From Bacteroidota bacterium (GTDB taxonomy: Bacteria > Bacteroidota > Bacteroidia > Chitinophagales > Chitinophagaceae), in the NCBI GenBank assembly GCA_018267585.1, contig JAFDYE010000219.1:1-53399 (forward strand): a stretch of 53,399 nucleotides of DNA. The letters run 5' to 3'. The translations under genes were made by a program, and so were the position numbers. Below, piece after piece: positions 3,804 to 51,914 of this stretch. How positions within the stretch are numbered: position 1 is the first letter of the stretch; every line of letters begins with the position of its first letter. The notes under the pieces are model-generated. The model worked only from the letters and a program-made list of their open reading frames with translations. It made no database searches and was not told the origin of the DNA.

Positions 3804-4985
3804 ATGTCGGAACGATTAACCTATTTGCTGAACCGTTGGCTTGACAGCACCGCCTCTCCGGAGGATCAGAAAGAGTTATGGGGCATGGTGCTGGATTCCA
3901 GCCACCAGCAACAATTAGAGACCGAACTCGAAGATGTCTGGACGACACTCGAAGGAGAGGAACAAATGAGTGTCGAAAAAATCGACGAGCTTTTCAAAAA
4001 GATCGATTCCGGCTCTCCCGGCATTATCCATCCCGGGAGACGATTGCTTTTCTGGACAGTGGCGGCCGCAGCATCGATCATTCTGGCGATCGGCCTGGCC
4101 ATATGGCACACCAAAAGCAGCATTCACCAGCCCGACACGATCGTTCTCAGGAACCCGGAGCCCGATATCCCGCCAGGTGGAAATAAAGCCACCCTTACGC
4201 TTGCGAATGGCAGCACCATCGTCCTTGACAATGCAGCGGATGGTGTGGTAACAAACCAGGGTCGCGTAAATATAATTAAACTTGGAGATGGCCAATTGGC
4301 CTACAAGGGCAAGGATACTGTCAGCTCAGTCAACACATTGACCACTCCTTTCGGCGGAATGTACCATCTGACATTGCCAGACGGGAGCTCAGTATGGCTG
4401 AACGCGGCTTCGGCTATTACTTATCCTACAGCATTTGTCGGGAGCAAAAGAGAAGTCCTGATCCGGGGAGAAGCCTACTTTGAAGTGAAAAAAGATGCCG
4501 CAAAGCCCTTTATTGTCAATCTGAATAGCGATACTAAGATAGAGGTCCTCGGTACCCGCTTTAACATAAATGCCTACGAAAATGAAAATATGATCCGTAC
4601 AACATTATTGGAAGGCGCGGTCAAAGTCACACAAGGCAAACTCAACGACAAAGAACACGGCGTAATACTCAAACCTGGCCAGCAGACTGTTACCGATGCC
4701 GATAACGGAACGATAAAAGTGATAGATATACCGGATCCGGACGCTGCGATCGCATGGAAAAATGGGCTGTTCAACTTCGAAGGAATGTCATTAGAATCAG
4801 CAATGCGTCAACTGGCACGTTGGTATGATATTCAGATCGTCTTTGAACAACCCTTAAGAGCAATCCAGTTCGGCGGTACCCTCAAAAGAAATCTACCGCT
4901 GTCCGATATTTTGCATTTTCTTGCGTCCGCCGGCTTGCATTACCGAATGGAGGAAAAGAACCGGCTGATCATCTTGAATAATTAA
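3804..4985 (+). CDS. FecR-family anti-sigma factor
   Basis: A 393-residue membrane anti-sigma factor. Residues 1-78 form the cytoplasmic helical anti-sigma part. One transmembrane helix spans about 81-101 (rich in A, I and L, ending IWH). The periplasmic FecR domain contains VWLNAASAITYP, GEAYFEVKKDAAKPF and VLGTRFNINAY. The C-terminal DUF4974-type domain starts near FEGMSLESAMRQLARWYD and includes the conserved FGGTLKRN. It lies directly downstream of an ECF sigma gene and 162 bp upstream of an STN-bearing susC, so it is the likely receiver of that receptor's signal. Confidence 0.95.
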   Translation: MSERLTYLLNRWLDSTASPEDQKELWGMVLDSSHQQQLETELEDVWTTLEGEEQMSVEKIDELFKKIDSGSPGIIHPGRRLLFWTVAAAASIILAIGLAIWHTKSSIHQPDTIVLRNPEPDIPPGGNKATLTLANGSTIVLDNAADGVVTNQGRVNIIKLGDGQLAYKGKDTVSSVNTLTTPFGGMYHLTLPDGSSVWLNAASAITYPTAFVGSKREVLIRGEAYFEVKKDAAKPFIVNLNSDTKIEVLGTRFNINAYENENMIRTTLLEGAVKVTQGKLNDKEHGVILKPGQQTVTDADNGTIKVIDIPDPDAAIAWKNGLFNFEGMSLESAMRQLARWYDIQIVFEQPLRAIQFGGTLKRNLPLSDILHFLASAGLHYRMEEKNRLIILNN

Positions 4986-5047
4986 CCCCGACACCAAAAA
5001 AACAATTATTATAGAAGAAACAAAAACCCCGGGAGATTAAACAAAAA

Positions 5048-5071
5048 CCGAAGATGCGGGAACATCTTCGG
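5048..5071 (+). promoter_or_regulatory. Strong stem-loop in the fecR-susC gap
   Basis: CCGAAGATG (5048-5056), a 6-nt loop CGGGAA and CATCTTCGG (5063-5071) form a perfect 9-bp stem about 77 bp upstream of the susC start. No T-run follows it, so it is not a classical intrinsic terminator. It may uncouple fecR from susC expression, mark the start of a separate sigma-dependent transcript, or stabilise the downstream mRNA. The structure is seen; the role is inferred. Confidence 0.5.
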
Positions 5072-5147
5072 CAACATTTGATCAACCAACAAGCCAATTT
5101 TCAATCGACGACAACTGCTTATTAACTAACCAAACTTTGAGGAAGGT

Positions 5148-8100
5148 ATGAAATTTTCTGCTTTTAACCAGCCGTGCGGCATCGGTTTGTCCGCAAACGA
5201 ACGATCCGCCCCCCGGCTAATAACCAAAACGCTGTTAGCGATGAAACTAACAATTGTGCTTTTAACTGCAGCATTCTTCAGCGCTCACGCTTCAGGTATT
5301 GCTCAAACCGTCACCCTGGCAACACAAAAAATGCCTCTGCAATTGGTGTTCAAAGCCATCGAAAAACAAACCGGCTACAGCATTTTTTATAACGATGAAC
5401 ATATAAAAAACGCAAGCCCCGTCACAGTAAATGTGCGGGATATGCCCTTGAAGACATTTCTGGAGCTGATCCTGCAACACGATCATCTGACCTTTGAAAT
5501 CTCCAAAGAAAATATCCTGATCAAAAAAGACGCGCCGATGAAGCCCGTGCCGGATGAAGAAAAGCCGATCAGGGTGTCGGGAACTGTAAGTGGTTCCAAC
5601 AAGCAACCATTGGAAGGAGCTACCATCCAGGTAAAGGACAAACAGCCTACTGCCATCACTAACGCCCGGGGAGAATTCCAGCTGACAGTCGAGCAAGGCA
5701 GTGTCATCGTGATAAGCTTTGTCGGTTATCGACAAAAGGAGATCAGGGTCACGATTAGCCAAACCATCAATATAAGGTTGGAGCCTTCGACCGATATACT
5801 GGAAAACGCAGATGTAGTCTCAACCGGCTATCAAATAATATCCAAAGAACGTAGCGCCGGCTCCTTCTCAAAGCCGGACATGCTTACGATTTCCATGCGA
5901 TCCAGCAGCCCGAACGTCCTGCAGAGACTGGACGGGCTGGTGCCCGGCCTTGTCGTTAATAATGCACCCAATGCTGAGCCATTACTGATCCGAGGGCTCA
6001 CATCGATCAACTCCACCAGATCACCGCTGATAATTGTAGATGGCGTCGAATTACCGCTCAACAACAACAATCCGGATGCTATGGCGAATATCATGAACGG
6101 CGCCAATCCAATTGCCAATATCAATCCCCAGGATATTGCTGATATCACAGTACTTAAAGACGCGTCTGCGGCTTCCATCTGGGGTGCGAAGGCGGCCAAC
6201 GGCGTGATCATTATCACCACAAAAAAAGGCCGGGCCGGCGAGAATTTAAAGATCGAGTATGACGGGTATTATATCTTCCAGGGCCGCCCGGACCTGAATT
6301 ATATTCCGAAACTGAATAGCGCGCAATACATCACCGCTGTCAAAGAGATCTTTCCCCAGTATGCCCCCTACAATACCTGGGGGAGCGTACAGCTGGTAGC
6401 CCCCGTTCCACCCCATCTGCAGACGCAGTATGATGCGTACAGAGGATTGATATCTCAGTCGCAGGCCGACAAGTCACTGGACAGCCTGGCATCGATCTCC
6501 AACCATAGTCAGATCGCCAATATATTTTACCGGAATGCCGCAACGATGAATCACACCATATCCCTTTCCGGCGGAGGACGTGTCCATTCTTTTTATGGAT
6601 CGTTAAGCTATACCGGCATTCAGAACAATGTCCCCGGGCAACAGAATAACAGCTATAAGATCAACCTGAGGCAGGACTTCAATGCCAGCCCGAAAATGCA
6701 ATTCTCCCTGATCACCGACCTGACGAATACCACTACCAGCGGAAATGCCATCGGCATTACAGATGGGATAGCCGTTCCGGGCTCGTCCTTTGTACCTTAT
6801 CAGCAATTCCGGGATGCCGGCGGCAATCCCCTGGCGGTCAACTTTATGGGTAATTACAGCGATTCACTTCGGTTGGATTATCAGGCAAGAAGCCGTATCA
6901 ATTTGGATTATGTCCCCCTCAATGAGATCAACAACGGCTATTTCAAGGGCAGCTCCCTGTCAGGCCGGCTGGTAGGCGGGGTAAAGATCAACCTTCTGAA
7001 ATGCCTTCGCTTTGAAGGCACCTATGGATATACTACCAACTCCTCGAATACAAGAACCGTATTGAGCCAGGCAAGCTATGGAGTAAGAAATGAGCTAGTG
7101 GATTTCACACAAGCGCCGACTGTAAACGACATTCCGCAATACTGGCTTCCCACTTCCGGCGGAAGGCTGACCGAAAACAATTCCACACAGAAAAGCTGGA
7201 CGGTCAGAAATCAGCTGATCTTTGACAATAGCTGGAAGGAACACCAGCTGACCTTGCTTGCAGGGCAGGAGGCGACCAGCGTTACACCCATTGCAACACA
7301 GGTGATCTATAGAGGCTGGGACGACCAGCTCCAGGTCTCGCGTCCGGTCAATTATGATACCTTGTCCAAAGGCATTACCGGAACTGTACCTGGCCTTTCA
7401 TATACTCTGCCCAACAATCTCAGCGGCGGCGAGGGCGTTATAACAAGGACCACCTCCTACTATTCCAATCTCAACTACGCCTACCTGAGCAAATACGTGC
7501 TGAATGCCAGCTGGAGAATCGATAAAAGCAATCTGTTCGGCTTCGACCAGTCTGCGCAAAACAGACCTGTCTGGAGTGTCGGCGGCAAGTGGATATTGGG
7601 CCGCGAAGGATTTATGCAAAAGATCAGCTGGATCGACCGGCTGGACTTTCGACTCACTTACGGTATCACTGGAAACGCACCGACTCCGGGCACCGCTGCC
7701 TCCTTTGACATCCTGCTTGCTCAGGCCAATGTCAATTATGTCAACGGAGCAGGCTATGTCATCTCGACTCCTGGCAATAATAAACTCACCTGGGAGGGAA
7801 CGTCTGTTTATAATACCGGTATCGACTTTTCTTTGCTCGGCAGCCGCCTGGGAGGATCCATTGACGGATACCTGAAAAAAACCCATGATCTGATCGGACC
7901 GCTGAGAACGGCTCCCCTGACGGGATACCCAAGCGTGACCGGGAACTTTGGCGATCTGGAGAATAAAGGGATCGAGCTTAGCCTGAATTCCCTCAACATC
8001 TCGTCCAGAACCTTCATATGGAGAACCTACCTGACGTTCGGCTATAACAGGAACAAGATCACGAGCCTGGCTGTCAGCGCACCTATTACGACCGGTCCCG

Positions 8101-8792
8101 GCATGATCGCAACGAATAGGTTGTCGCCGTTCTTCGTTGGCCGGCCGGCATTCACCGTATTTGCATACAATTACGCCGGACTAAATGCATCCGGCGATCC
8201 GCAGATAAAACAGGCCACCGGTAAGGTCACGTCAGCCGCTACCGCATCCACCTCCGATGACGTATTGTATATGGGAAGCTCTCAGCCTTCCTGGACGGGC
8301 GGATTGTCCAATACATTTCTGTATAAGGGATTTTACCTGGGGATCAATATCAGCTACAATATGGGTCATGTGTTATTCCGGGATGCGAATACATTCTGGA
8401 GCGGCGTAATGTATGACAATTCCATGAGCAGCGAATTTGCCAACCGATGGAAGGCTCCCGGTGATGAAGCCAGAACAAATATTCCGAGATATGCAGGCTC
8501 GAATGCGATCGACAACAATCGGCTTACCGATTATTACACCCATGGCAATACGAATGTGTTCAATGCATCCTACGCTAAGATCAGAGACATTACCCTATCC
8601 TACAACCTCGGAAAGCAGATCATTCAGCGTCTCCACGTTGCGGGAGTCGCCTTCCGGGTCCAGGTTTCCAATTTGATGCTCTGGAAGGCCAATAGCCTGG
8701 GCATCGATCCTGAATTCCAAAGTGTGGCCGGGGTTCGGTCCATGCGCACGGGTCAGGGCGCTTTGACGATCGGCGCGCATATCAACCTTTAA
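5148..8792 (+). CDS. SusC/RagA-family TonB-linked outer-membrane protein with STN domain
   Basis: A 1214-residue TonB-dependent outer-membrane importer. The long N-region carries a signal peptide whose hydrophobic core begins at Met32 (LTIVLLTAAFF). An STN domain spans about 55-125, a carboxypeptidase-regulatory-like domain about 140-215, and the plug about 235-365 (ITVLKDASAASIWGAKAANG is its hallmark). The rest is beta-barrel. The segment before the plug reads VVSTGYQIISKERSAGSF rather than the commoner VVVVGYG, a variant I recall beside TlpA-like proteins. A purine-rich GAGGAAGG just before ATG 5148 supports this start. It is followed by its SusD after 16 bp. The substrate cannot be read from sequence; no glycanase is encoded nearby. 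Confidence 0.95.
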   Translation: MKFSAFNQPCGIGLSANERSAPRLITKTLLAMKLTIVLLTAAFFSAHASGIAQTVTLATQKMPLQLVFKAIEKQTGYSIFYNDEHIKNASPVTVNVRDMPLKTFLELILQHDHLTFEISKENILIKKDAPMKPVPDEEKPIRVSGTVSGSNKQPLEGATIQVKDKQPTAITNARGEFQLTVEQGSVIVISFVGYRQKEIRVTISQTINIRLEPSTDILENADVVSTGYQIISKERSAGSFSKPDMLTISMRSSSPNVLQRLDGLVPGLVVNNAPNAEPLLIRGLTSINSTRSPLIIVDGVELPLNNNNPDAMANIMNGANPIANINPQDIADITVLKDASAASIWGAKAANGVIIITTKKGRAGENLKIEYDGYYIFQGRPDLNYIPKLNSAQYITAVKEIFPQYAPYNTWGSVQLVAPVPPHLQTQYDAYRGLISQSQADKSLDSLASISNHSQIANIFYRNAATMNHTISLSGGGRVHSFYGSLSYTGIQNNVPGQQNNSYKINLRQDFNASPKMQFSLITDLTNTTTSGNAIGITDGIAVPGSSFVPYQQFRDAGGNPLAVNFMGNYSDSLRLDYQARSRINLDYVPLNEINNGYFKGSSLSGRLVGGVKINLLKCLRFEGTYGYTTNSSNTRTVLSQASYGVRNELVDFTQAPTVNDIPQYWLPTSGGRLTENNSTQKSWTVRNQLIFDNSWKEHQLTLLAGQEATSVTPIATQVIYRGWDDQLQVSRPVNYDTLSKGITGTVPGLSYTLPNNLSGGEGVITRTTSYYSNLNYAYLSKYVLNASWRIDKSNLFGFDQSAQNRPVWSVGGKWILGREGFMQKISWIDRLDFRLTYGITGNAPTPGTAASFDILLAQANVNYVNGAGYVISTPGNNKLTWEGTSVYNTGIDFSLLGSRLGGSIDGYLKKTHDLIGPLRTAPLTGYPSVTGNFGDLENKGIELSLNSLNISSRTFIWRTYLTFGYNRNKITSLAVSAPITTGPGMIATNRLSPFFVGRPAFTVFAYNYAGLNASGDPQIKQATGKVTSAATASTSDDVLYMGSSQPSWTGGLSNTFLYKGFYLGINISYNMGHVLFRDANTFWSGVMYDNSMSSEFANRWKAPGDEARTNIPRYAGSNAIDNNRLTDYYTHGNTNVFNASYAKIRDITLSYNLGKQIIQRLHVAGVAFRVQVSNLMLWKANSLGIDPEFQSVAGVRSMRTGQGALTIGAHINL

Positions 8793-48966: not shown

Positions 48967-49353
48967 TTAATGCTGAAACCAGGTGCCGGCGATCTTTTCG
49001 ATCAGTTCTTCGGTCAACGGCTTTTCGCAATAGTCCACTACTCTACTGAACCGTAATGCTTTATCCCGATCCTCCTTGCGAATTGAGCTGGTTAGCATAA
49101 CCACTTTGACATTCTTGCAGACCCCATTCTTCTCGAGGCGTTCGAGGAAGTCAAACCCGTCCATCCGTGGCATCCGGATATCCAGAAAGATAATATCCGG
49201 ACATTTCTGGCGATCCATCAGCTTGCAGGCAACCAGCCCGTCCTCGGCGATCTGGATCTCTCTGGCGGCGTTCATATACTTCAATACTTCCTGCGAAAGG
49301 AAGTTCATCGTTTGGTCATCGTCTACCAACAGAACTTTATTAAAGGGTATCAT
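48967..49353 (-). CDS. Single-domain response regulator (receiver only)
   Basis: A 128-residue CheY/Rcp1-like receiver. Acidic pocket residues lie in VLLVDDDQT (Asp12, Asp13), the phospho-acceptor is Asp58 (IIFLDIRMPRMDG), the Thr/Ser switch is in VVMLTSS, and the Lys is in YCEKPL. No DNA-binding or enzymatic output domain is attached, so it must act by protein contact or phosphotransfer. Its start overlaps the histidine kinase gene by 14 nt. It is the last gene of the four-gene partner-switch/two-component operon. Confidence 0.95.
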   Translation of the reverse strand: MIPFNKVLLVDDDQTMNFLSQEVLKYMNAAREIQIAEDGLVACKLMDRQKCPDIIFLDIRMPRMDGFDFLERLEKNGVCKNVKVVMLTSSIRKEDRDKALRFSRVVDYCEKPLTEELIEKIAGTWFQH

Positions 49354-50428
49354 GGCTCAAATGGATTTTGAAGGTCGTTCCGTGACCAGGTTTACTTTTA
49401 ATATTGATCTTACCATTGTATGACCTGACAATAGAGGCGATCATATGCAAGCCGATCCCCATGCCTTCGGTATGCGTATGAAAACGCTGGAAAAGCCCGT
49501 AGAGCTTGCTGCGAAAAAGCTTCAGGTCGATCCCGAGTCCATTGTCGCTGAACTCGAGAACTGGAGACCGGCCATCGGGATACGTGCTCACGCTGATCTC
49601 GGAGACGGCGTCTTCCCGCCTGTACTTTATGGCATTGGTCAAAAGGTTCTGCAAAATGCTTTTCAAATGTACGGGAGGATACCACACTGTCGGACACCGG
49701 GAGAAGTCCGCATGAAGAACTACACCCGAGGCAACCACCTGCTGCTGTACCACCGCAAGCACCTCCTGCCAGACCTCTCCGACATCGACAGGCTTCGCTT
49801 CCAGCTTCAGGGTCTTCCGGAAAGCGATGATCTCGTTCAAGGCCATTATCGTCTTTCGCATCTGGTGCGTCGAGTTTCTGGCCATCTCAAAAAGATTGCT
49901 GAATTCCGGCTTGACTGCCTTGTTCTTCTCCATCATGTTCATCAATCCTTCCAGGCTGAGGATCGGCGATTTCATATCATGCGAGCTCAGATAAGCAAAT
50001 TCCTCCAACTCCTTATTGGATGTTGCCAGCTCTTCGGCCTGCACCTTCAGTCGTTGCTCGGCGATAACACGATTGGTAATGTCTTCGATAGTGATCAGCA
50101 ATCCGTTGAGGATGAGACGGCCCTTGATATTGACATACCGGTCGCCACTGCCGATGTACTCGAGATCGAAGGGTTTTCTTCCCTGCTCAAGACATTTCCG
50201 GATAATCTCTTCAAAAATAGGAATGTGGGATGTCAGAGGCAACAGTGGTTGATCCACCAGTTCTGAAAGCTGCCCCTCAAGACGAAGGTATTCCTTTGCC
50301 AGACCATTGGCAATGGTGATGTTACCCTCCAGATCGATAGCCAGCAATCCATAGGGAGCACTACCGATCAGGGACATCAGATACTCCTTGACCTCGGTAT
50401 TGCCGCTATGTCGCCGGTTGTACCTCAT
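49340..50428 (-). CDS. PAS-domain sensor histidine kinase (soluble)
   Basis: A 362-residue kinase without membrane segments. A PAS domain occupies about 15-125 (PYGLLAIDLEGNITIANGLA). The dimerisation/phospho-acceptor helix has FAYLSSHDMKSPILSLEGL with His150. The ATP-binding domain (about 240-360) shows the N box LKSILQNLLTNAIKYR, LEFSDNGLGID and GMGIGLHMIASIVRSYNGKI. It therefore senses a cytoplasmic cue or a partner protein. Its ATG overlaps the stop of the RsbT-RsbX-like gene (ATGA), and its own end overlaps the receiver gene, so stoichiometric production is expected. Confidence 0.95.
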   Translation of the reverse strand: MRYNRRHSGNTEVKEYLMSLIGSAPYGLLAIDLEGNITIANGLAKEYLRLEGQLSELVDQPLLPLTSHIPIFEEIIRKCLEQGRKPFDLEYIGSGDRYVNIKGRLILNGLLITIEDITNRVIAEQRLKVQAEELATSNKELEEFAYLSSHDMKSPILSLEGLMNMMEKNKAVKPEFSNLFEMARNSTHQMRKTIMALNEIIAFRKTLKLEAKPVDVGEVWQEVLAVVQQQVVASGVVLHADFSRCPTVWYPPVHLKSILQNLLTNAIKYRREDAVSEISVSTYPDGRSPVLEFSDNGLGIDLKLFRSKLYGLFQRFHTHTEGMGIGLHMIASIVRSYNGKINIKSKPGHGTTFKIHLSHDTL

Positions 50429-51423
50429 ACAGTTTTATTGAATTTTGTTACCAGTACGGTGGCATCCCCGAACTCCCGCCGGTAATTGGTCATGATATGA
50501 TCAGCGATCACCTGCGCCTGCGCGTCAACGGGTAGATCTTTCGCAGAGAAATGATCCCTTATCCCATCCGTACACAGCACTACCACCATGTTATTCTGAC
50601 GGCACACCATCTTGACCACCTTTACCACCGGCATGCGGAACTGTCCGATCAACCCGCGCTGACTCAGTATCCGCGTTCTGTCTCCGGAAAGGAATTGAAG
50701 AAAAGTATCCCCGACAGCCGCATACTGGATCGACCTCGGCCTTATCAACATCAGCCCGATGGCGGCGCCGAACAGCTCGCCTTTTCCCTTAAGGGCAGTG
50801 TCACACTTATAAAGAATATTATCGAGCGCGCAGTGATGATTGGCTTCGATGACCTCCTTGACCAGCATCGACGACAAATAGGCATTGTGCCCCTGACCTA
50901 ACCCATCGATAACCGACAGCAGCACCCTATCCCCTCCGAACTCATGTATCACATAACCATCCCCGTTAAGGTGATGGCCATCATCCGGCAGGCTCACGAT
51001 GCCATACTCGATCTCAGCATCAGGAATAGGAAGATATTTCTTCATGCTGACGCGTGTCCCTGCCCTCGGACCTGAACGGACCGAAAAATAATCCATCGCC
51101 CTCCGGGCTGCTCCCATGCCAACCCCAAGGCTGGTCTTGGTCGTGGTATAGCCATCCTCCAGCGCCTTATGAGGGTCGTCGATACCAGGCCCCTTATCCT
51201 CGACAAGGATAGAAAGCCCTTTCCGGTTGTCAGTCATCGCGATCCGGACAATTCCCTTCTTCGCATACCGGATCACATTCGTGGCTATCTCCGATACGGC
51301 GGTAGCGATCAGATTGCAGTCGAGGCGCGCAAAACCAGTATCCGCCGCCATCCGCAACGCCATATCAGTTGCATCAAAGACGTCGCTCTCCTTTTGAAGA
51401 GGAATAATGATCTTGTCTTTCAT
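50425..51423 (-). CDS. RsbT-like serine kinase fused to RsbX/SpoIIE-like PP2C phosphatase
   Basis: A 332-residue soluble protein. Residues about 1-133 are an anti-sigma-type ATPase/kinase. The N box is SEIATNVIRYA (Glu45, Asn49), then VEDKGPGID, then the RsbT-like lid GYTTTKTSLGVGMGAARRAM and a GTRVSMKKY end. Residues about 138-332 are a PP2C/SpoIIE domain with metal-binding SVIDGLGQGHN (Asp173), CTDGIRD (Asp286) and FGDATVLV (Asp320). In Bacillus these are separate proteins, RsbT and RsbX, that phosphorylate and dephosphorylate stressosome STAS proteins. Here one chain may carry both opposing activities. The STAS gene is 11 bp upstream. Confidence 0.9.
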   Translation of the reverse strand: MKDKIIIPLQKESDVFDATDMALRMAADTGFARLDCNLIATAVSEIATNVIRYAKKGIVRIAMTDNRKGLSILVEDKGPGIDDPHKALEDGYTTTKTSLGVGMGAARRAMDYFSVRSGPRAGTRVSMKKYLPIPDAEIEYGIVSLPDDGHHLNGDGYVIHEFGGDRVLLSVIDGLGQGHNAYLSSMLVKEVIEANHHCALDNILYKCDTALKGKGELFGAAIGLMLIRPRSIQYAAVGDTFLQFLSGDRTRILSQRGLIGQFRMPVVKVVKMVCRQNNMVVVLCTDGIRDHFSAKDLPVDAQAQVIADHIMTNYRREFGDATVLVTKFNKTV

Positions 51424-51434
51424 CTTTATATATA

Positions 51435-51914
51435 CTATACTTCGGGCATATAGGACTTTGGAGCAGCGCCGTGCACCTTGGGTATCGGCACAAGCATCAT
51501 CCCCTGCAGCTCAAACACCAGCCTGAGCGCCGCCCTCAGGTCCTTACATAACAAATATTTGGAAAATTCTACACCGACGGTCATCATGGTCTGCGCCACC
51601 CGGGAATTGATGCCGCAAAAGATGACATTGCATCCTACCAAACGAACGACATCCCCGACGCGAATCAGGTGGGCGGCAACGGCTGAGTCGATAATGTCCA
51701 CATTACTCAGGTCGATCACGATCGTGTCATTGTCCGTCTGGTCAATCGCTTCCAGTATCTCGTCCGTGATCATCTTCATTCGGGCCGAGTCCAGCCGGCC
51801 GAAAAATCCGGAATACAGACAACGATCGGTCAATTTGCTGACAATCATTGAAGATTCAAGACCGATGCGTTTCTCGCTGATGGAGACGCGTTGCGTCATT
51901 TCCTTTTTCGCCAT
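51435..51914 (-). CDS. STAS-domain protein, RsbS/RsbR-like stressosome component
   Basis: A 159-residue protein with a short N-terminal extension and one STAS domain (about 20-140). The segment IVIDLSNVDIIDSAVAAHLI contains Ser77 at the position phosphorylated by RsbT in RsbS/RsbR proteins. GCNVIFCGINSRVAQTMM and TVGVEF match the stressosome STAS signature. Full RsbR proteins carry a large N-terminal globin-like sensor, absent here, so by length it is closer to RsbS. Last residues (SYMPEV) form a short tail. It heads the operon with the kinase-phosphatase fusion. Confidence 0.9.
   Translation of the reverse strand: MAKKEMTQRVSISEKRIGLESSMIVSKLTDRCLYSGFFGRLDSARMKMITDEILEAIDQTDNDTIVIDLSNVDIIDSAVAAHLIRVGDVVRLVGCNVIFCGINSRVAQTMMTVGVEFSKYLLCKDLRAALRLVFELQGMMLVPIPKVHGAAPKSYMPEV

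Follow-up and report, generated by a model that had tools for sequence, protein, structure and literature searches.

Where does a stressosome-like partner switch deliver its signal in bacteria that, to our knowledge, have no SigB? The question is raised for the Bacteroidota by a stretch of 53,399 nucleotides (here called the window; GenBank assembly GCA_018267585.1, contig JAFDYE010000219.1, positions 1 to 53,399) from a member of the Chitinophagaceae, in which four genes between positions 48967 and 51914, all on the minus strand, encode a solo STAS protein, a fusion of an RsbT-like kinase to an RsbX-like phosphatase (a T/X fusion), a PAS histidine kinase, and a response regulator, a combination that we call the compact module. 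For the stressosomes of Vibrio, RsbT has been proposed to act on a downstream two-component sensor kinase, and the available text of that study reports that no interaction was seen (PMC9237108). We find that the compact module is real, conserved, and made of ordinary parts, and that it is unusual in its reduction, with a stressosome-like system cut to four proteins of 128 to 362 amino acids, and in its link to histidine kinase cores that change between modules. In our judgment the chances are evenly balanced that it forms a minimal partner switch, with one STAS protein, that controls the two-component pair. The module has few parts, suggests where on the kinase contact may be made, and, in the majority of the relatives seen, includes a DNA-binding-type regulator with readable targets, and it therefore makes the output question testable.

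Parts of the compact module

The genes are tightly packed, as an earlier note on this DNA had described and as re-reading of the coordinates confirmed: the STAS gene (51435-51914, 159 amino acids) is separated by 11 bp from the fusion gene (50425-51423, 332 amino acids), which shares a 4-nt ATGA overlap with the kinase gene (49340-50428, 362 amino acids), which in turn overlaps the receiver gene (48967-49353, 128 amino acids) by 14 nt. The same note proposed a profile search for STAS, HATPase_c_2, and SpoIIE, and Pfam matched all three, SpoIIE just below its threshold.

STAS is the sole domain above cut-off in the first protein (Pfam E 6.7e-13). The best matches in the PDB are RsbR proteins (62.6 bits, against 45.2 for RsbS), and among the proteins of its own genome it again scores higher with RsbR (59.9 bits) than with RsbS (22.7 bits), so that it is classed by sequence as RsbR-type and not RsbS-type. 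We compared it with 13 canonical sets, in which RsbR, RsbS, and a separate RsbT are encoded together. Ser77 falls in the column of the Ser/Thr site of the canonical RsbR and RsbS proteins, and the column of Thr109 holds threonine in 13 of 13 RsbR and 12 of 13 RsbS; we take these two columns to be the known phosphorylation sites of RsbR and RsbS. Of the earlier description of an RsbS/RsbR-like protein with Ser77 at the RsbT target position, the serine thus stands and the RsbS-type identity does not. Across 23 compact STAS proteins the Ser77 column is serine in 22 and threonine in one, and position 109 is serine or threonine in 19 and isoleucine or valine in four. Two cysteines, Cys32 and Cys100, are present in all 23 compact proteins, and no cysteine occupies either column in the 13 canonical RsbR or the 13 canonical RsbS sequences of the alignment; a redox or metal role for the pair is possible. 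Pfam finds no N-terminal sensor domain in the 159 residues, and compact relatives are of similar size (135-182 amino acids), which bears out the remark that no globin-type RsbR sensor is encoded locally. In a STAS tree with long branches and unsettled bootstrap values, the compact proteins form a group of their own, adjoining RsbR under a midpoint root.

The fusion joins a GHKL kinase domain (residues about 1-135, 51019..51423) to a PP2C/SpoIIE phosphatase domain (residues about 136-332, 50425..51018). The kinase half matches HATPase_c_2 above cut-off (E 1.7e-13) and carries the predicted N-box glutamate and asparagine and the G-box residues of the GHKL family: E45, N49, D76, G78, G80, G100, and G102 are invariant in 22 aligned fusions. 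The C-terminal half matches SpoIIE at E 3.6e-05 (24.2 bits, just under the cut-off of 25.0), a family found in 20 of the 22 fusions at E<=0.001, and phmmer relates the protein to RsbX (PDB 3w40, E 3.2e-05). Its aspartates, which by family are presumably metal-binding, are conserved: D155, D239, and D320 are invariant, and D173 and D286 are kept in at least 90% of the 22 fusions. AlphaFold2 models of the fusion and of the histidine kinase, built from alignments of relatives taken from the loci described below, back two of the assignments that fell below threshold, SpoIIE here and PAS in the kinase. In the fusion model (pLDDT 89.5) the C-terminal half superposes on PDB 3zt9, a stressosome phosphatase whose entry title names the bacterial stressosome, at rmsd 2.1 (TM 0.89, by target length), and less closely on RsbX 3w40 (TM 0.79); we take 3zt9 to be the Moorella RsbX homologue. 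This half is thus modelled as a PP2C fold with the aspartates of the family. Pfam, the conserved residues, and the model agree on an RsbT-like kinase fused to an RsbX/SpoIIE-like phosphatase, as had been read from the sequence earlier.

The third protein begins with a helix and a PAS domain (residues 1-128, 50045..50428), with the pair T11-E12 in the helix, and continues with a HisKA-type core (49340..50044) that contains SSHDMKSP at residue 148, with the phospho-acceptor H150, and an HATPase_c domain. Pfam supports HATPase_c (E 3.6e-19) and scores PAS at 20.2 bits (cut-off 22.6) and HisKA at 18.2 (cut-off 26.9). The kinase model (pLDDT 81) has a PAS-like order of strands and helices at residues about 21-120 (pLDDT 90-95), and in the PDB it is matched best by LOV/PAS histidine kinases, at low whole-chain TM (0.34-0.51 by query length among the ten best). 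H150 is invariant in an alignment of 21 kinases. The fourth protein is a single-domain CheY-like receiver (Response_reg E 2.7e-21, no other Pfam match), with D58, T88, and K111 counted by eye on the translation. By the phospho-acceptor histidine and the receiver domain, the two are predicted to be a two-component pair.

Linkage in other taxa and relation to canonical stressosomes

The gene order of STAS, fusion, kinase, and regulator recurs in other taxa and is more than chance. A contig scan with the STAS alignment returned 24 loci, of which 22 were counted as compact; the other two (L088 and L089, at 34% and 32% identity) are canonical RsbR-RsbS loci and were dropped. Because the scan rests on two short peptide patterns, diverged compact members are missed. 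By title, the 22 loci, all labelled as metagenome-assembled genomes (MAGs), divide into Saprospiraceae (14), other Bacteroidota (3), Cloacimonadota (2), Armatimonadota (1), Myxococcota (1), and Deltaproteobacteria (1). Five are the same records as genomes in our order sample (G362, G516, G527, G466, and G554), and with the window and L054 (from G352) there are 24 distinct loci. Some are partial: the contig of L078 lacks a kinase, that of L067 holds only the start of one, L068 begins inside the STAS gene, and in L054 the fusion is cut at its N-terminus and the STAS gene is absent because the contig ends. L067 and L068 are nearly identical here and come from one isolate-name series, titled Cloacimonadota and Armatimonadota, and one of the two labels, if not both, may reflect misbinning. 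The fusion is the gene next to STAS in 21 of the 22 scanned loci, with a spacing of at most 11 bp or an overlap in 18 of these 21 and 137, 137, and 259 bp in the other three. In the remaining locus, L073, the genes directly after STAS encode the PAS kinase and a receiver; the fusion gene is on the opposite strand at a distance of about 5.5 kb, and behind it comes another kinase gene with this PAS. In the Myxococcota locus (L120:4272-14574), one strand carries STAS, a PAS kinase, and a receiver, and the opposite strand carries the fusion and a PAS kinase, with further signalling genes between the two groups. The linkage proposed earlier between a partner switch and a two-component pair is thus repeated in other taxa. 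A contig scan with the window fusion alone gave 33 stretches that fit the pattern, none of them a relative, and the fusion alignment proved too variable for such a scan.

In genome samples graded by relationship, the module is sparse. With the fusion as query, seven of 396 order genomes match at E<=1e-25, including its own, and the compact form is present in six of the 395 others. The same query matches two genomes in a phylum sample of 395: its own, and G753, which has a canonical locus (L055). Of 244 genomes in the family sample, 25 match at E<=1e-10, including its own; the compact module was not seen in the 243 others, where the fusion matches are of canonical type. Each of the 24 other matching genomes has a fusion with an adjoining separate RsbT-like match, and eight of the 24 were annotated; the best (G060, E 6.1e-26, 31% identity) has a canonical locus, L056. 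With the STAS protein as query, only its own genome and five others match among 33 genomes of the genus, and the matching frames are RsbR-sized (293-367 amino acids). Conservation of the four genes in relatives, on which the earlier note had staked its reading, therefore fails within the family (24 fusion matches in 243 genomes, the best canonical) and holds in the six order genomes and the 22 scanned loci.

The comparison with canonical modules also shows where the reduction lies. The own genome (G000) carries such a module at the end of contig C259 (L004, G000:C259:74000-82411, positions 4897-8410): RsbR (163 amino acids, incomplete at the contig end), then RsbS, RsbT, a T/X fusion, and a histidine kinase. 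Eleven annotated canonical loci (L055-L065, from eight of the 24 family genomes, two genomes of the genus, and G753) all have the order RsbR-RsbS-RsbT-fusion-kinase, and with G000 and L089 they make up the 13 canonical sets of the trees. Every one of the 13 carries a T/X fusion, so the idea that the fusion is unique to the window operon was ruled out, the own genome being among the counterexamples. The earlier note had contrasted the fusion with the separate proteins of Bacillus; it is not a peculiarity of this operon, and SypE of Vibrio fischeri, as described in the available text of the papers cited below, is likewise a kinase and phosphatase protein acting on a STAS protein. What sets the window module apart is the lack of RsbS and of a separate RsbT. 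In the window operon there is no RsbS and no stand-alone RsbT, only the domain of the fusion; the own genome has both elsewhere, RsbS on another contig and the separate RsbT on C259. Canonical family modules such as L064 and L004 resemble the compact one in having a T/X fusion followed by a histidine kinase and, in some loci, a receiver; they differ in having RsbR (with an RsbRD_N domain in L064), RsbS, and stand-alone RsbT, and in a different kinase N-terminus, and their fusions are 25-31% identical to that of the window. One canonical-module kinase (L059:7136-8377) starts with an RsbT-like domain, matched by HATPase_c_2 at residues 19-130 (E 4.7e-17), and continues with HisKA and HATPase_c. 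We considered whether the window fusion formed from RsbT and RsbX independently of the canonical fusion. A tree of T domains has three groups, compact fusions (support 76/66, weak), canonical RsbT (95/98), and canonical fusions (89/86), and because it is unrooted, sister pairs among the three are not readable from it.

The module probably reached this lineage by transfer: no DNA match was found inside 48967-51914 in the genomes G270, G260, and G259, though neighbouring genes match there, in flanking matches that are themselves non-contiguous. A misbinned contig was considered and rejected, since a 1214-residue protein at 5148-8792 of the window has counterparts in two genomes of its genus, at 78% identity over the full length in G270 and at 75-81% identity, split into two pieces, in G260.

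Changing kinase cores and a retained PAS region

An indication of how the two halves of the module might be joined comes from the histidine kinases. Among 21 of them, including that of the window, the core is of the HisKA_3 family in 16 and of HisKA in five. Compared with the window kinase, 22 kinases show 27-41% identity in the PAS region, and 20 of 21 kinases with a comparable core show 14-23% there; the exception is the L073 kinase, whose core is the nearest to the window's (39%, with 36% in PAS). Among the 21 kinases that have both parts, all but that of L073 are closer to the window's in the PAS region than in the core. A match to the PAS region is present in all 21 kinases seen in the scanned loci, and a PAS query at E<=0.01 picks out one protein only, the module kinase, from the genome of each of five relatives. 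As judged from these alignments, the core has been swapped between modules and the N-terminal PAS region kept, which makes PAS the likely point of contact on the kinase.

The regulator also varies. It is NarL-like in 16 of the 20 scanned loci with a readable one and a receiver without such similarity in four, and Pfam finds a LuxR-type helix-turn-helix in all four regulators checked (L050, L051, L052, and L054, that is, three of the 16 NarL-like records and L054). The earlier description of a PAS histidine kinase with an output-less receiver is right for the window, by Pfam and by model, and the lone receiver is a minority form in general. The NarL-like majority supports the two-component pair as the output of the module. 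In L079 the regulator lies 1.1 kb away, behind a mechanosensitive-channel-like gene. In three modules with HisKA-type kinases (L066, L068, and L070), further receiver proteins follow downstream, some with PAS/GAF and histidine kinase domains and one with an HD domain, which suggests a phosphorelay.

A candidate partner switch and its alternatives

The partner switch that we favour builds on the parts, their conserved active-site residues, their linkage in other taxa, and the retention of PAS across cores, all read from sequence or structure model. From these we infer phosphorylation, a change of partner, PAS contact, and a direction of the signal, as follows. The RsbT-like domain of the fusion would bind the unphosphorylated RsbR-type STAS protein and phosphorylate Ser77, and the RsbX-like domain would take the phosphate off again. 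When phosphorylated at Ser77, the STAS protein would release the kinase domain of the fusion, which would then turn to the neighbouring histidine kinase and act on its N-terminal helix and PAS region, and this contact would alter phosphorylation of the regulator, a lone receiver here and a NarL-like DNA-binding regulator in most relatives. The signal may be sensed through PAS, the cysteine-marked STAS protein, or an unlinked protein.

Several observations weigh against such a switch. First, PAS may have been retained for a shared ligand instead of a shared partner. Second, a PAS query of the 396 order genomes at E<=1e-6 gives 11 matches, the seven genomes with a compact module (in G362 the kinase heads a different contig, as expected if a contig break parts it from the module) and four others (L115, L116, L117, and L118), in which a PAS kinase is paired with a NarL-like regulator and neither STAS nor fusion is nearby in the 10-14 kb fetched, the L118 contig ending 2.9 kb upstream. 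These four genomes are not among the fusion-positive order genomes (the order sample was apparently the same). The PAS kinase can thus exist without the switch, and the idea that it is confined to the module was ruled out. Third, in the fusion of L053 (6133-7152; L076 is the same record) the phosphatase motifs have degenerated, with NN for DG and TNG for TDG, and the protein is perhaps a kinase only. Fourth, binding of RsbT to its two-component partner was not detected in the Vibrio study, as far as its available text goes (PMC9237108). Among 25 module kinases, 24 conserve E12 and 21 conserve T11, the two residues that immediately precede PAS, and the T-E pair is absent in three of the four solo PAS kinases and kept in one, a small sample that hints that the helix in front of PAS may matter for the switch.

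The strongest rival reverses the direction, and we hold it to be possible although on balance unlikely. The kinase and receiver would stand upstream, the phosphorylated receiver would dock on the fusion and tip its balance of kinase and phosphatase, and the STAS protein would be the output, acting on an unlinked partner. There is precedent in V. fischeri, where SypE, according to the available text, combines kinase, receiver, and phosphatase in one protein, is switched between states by a phosphorelay, and acts on the STAS protein SypA (PMC4517449, PMC3610818); in the window these three kinds of domain are divided between a fusion and a lone receiver, and the HsbR/HsbA partner switch, in the available text, likewise includes a response regulator (PMC6482189). 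Three features point the other way: the window fusion has no Response_reg domain by Pfam, its receiver being a separate gene; the retained N-terminal region sits on the kinase and not on the regulator; and the NarL-like regulators of 16 of the 20 readable loci suggest an output and not a docking module.

We think it improbable that the module is an accessory to a true stressosome, in which the sensor-less STAS protein would co-assemble with RsbR, RsbS, and RsbT encoded elsewhere and divert part of their signal to the kinase. The canonical set on C259 and the higher scores of the STAS protein with RsbR than with RsbS fit this view; however, an RsbS query from the own genome (E<=1e-5), which does find its match in G000, finds none in the six relatives' genomes with a compact module, which are 83-100% complete. 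The compact module is then not generally dependent on a canonical stressosome, and independence is suggested. Equally doubtful is an elaboration in which the module is a self-contained minimal stressosome and the scaffold is itself the sensor, so that a single two-cysteine STAS protein would sense redox state or a metal, the one fused enzyme would cycle its phosphate, and the enzyme would dock on a dedicated PAS moved between cores. That an ordinary two-component pair merely lies behind an unrelated STAS and phosphatase pair is a slim prospect, since the four PAS kinases (of 11) without neighbouring switch genes and the differing kinase cores that favour it are set against a gene order repeated across several labelled phyla with frequent overlaps and a PAS that matches all 21 kinases seen.

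Set beside known systems, the favoured partner switch most resembles the RsbR-RsbS-RsbT-RsbX stressosomes of the Vibrio type, which in the available text of two papers have an RsbR-type STAS protein with an acceptor Ser/Thr, an RsbT-like kinase, and an RsbX-like phosphatase, in an operon without a SigB cascade and with two-component proteins downstream (PMC9237108, PMC4976288). The window module differs in that it has a single STAS gene where these have two, lacks RsbS, a STAS sensor domain, and a separate RsbT, carries kinase and phosphatase in one chain, and has a target kinase with PAS and, by Pfam, no RsbU_N. The available text on Vibrio vulnificus places RSTX modules in Bacteroidetes among others and includes phosphorelays among the downstream modules (PMC9237108). 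SypE and SypA share with the window a serine kinase and PP2C phosphatase in one protein, one STAS target, and a link to a phosphorelay, and differ in the central receiver domain of SypE; the likeness is one of published description, as far as available, and not of sequence. HsbR/HsbA of P. aeruginosa and CrsR/CrsA of Shewanella likewise combine a STAS-type antagonist with a response regulator in a partner switch and, in the available text, end on sigma and anti-sigma factors (PMC6482189). For Vogesella, the text available to us mentions a regulator that combines a receiver with RsbW. A word-matching search of the open-access literature found no description of a module with one STAS protein, no RsbS, a T/X fusion, and a PAS kinase.

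Promoter-like sites number five, against 3.9 expected, and terminator-like sites seven, against 2.9 expected (standard deviation 1.7). One of the latter, a stem of five pairs followed by TTTTT on the minus strand (48701-48687), lies about 270 bp past the receiver gene and could mark the end of the operon.

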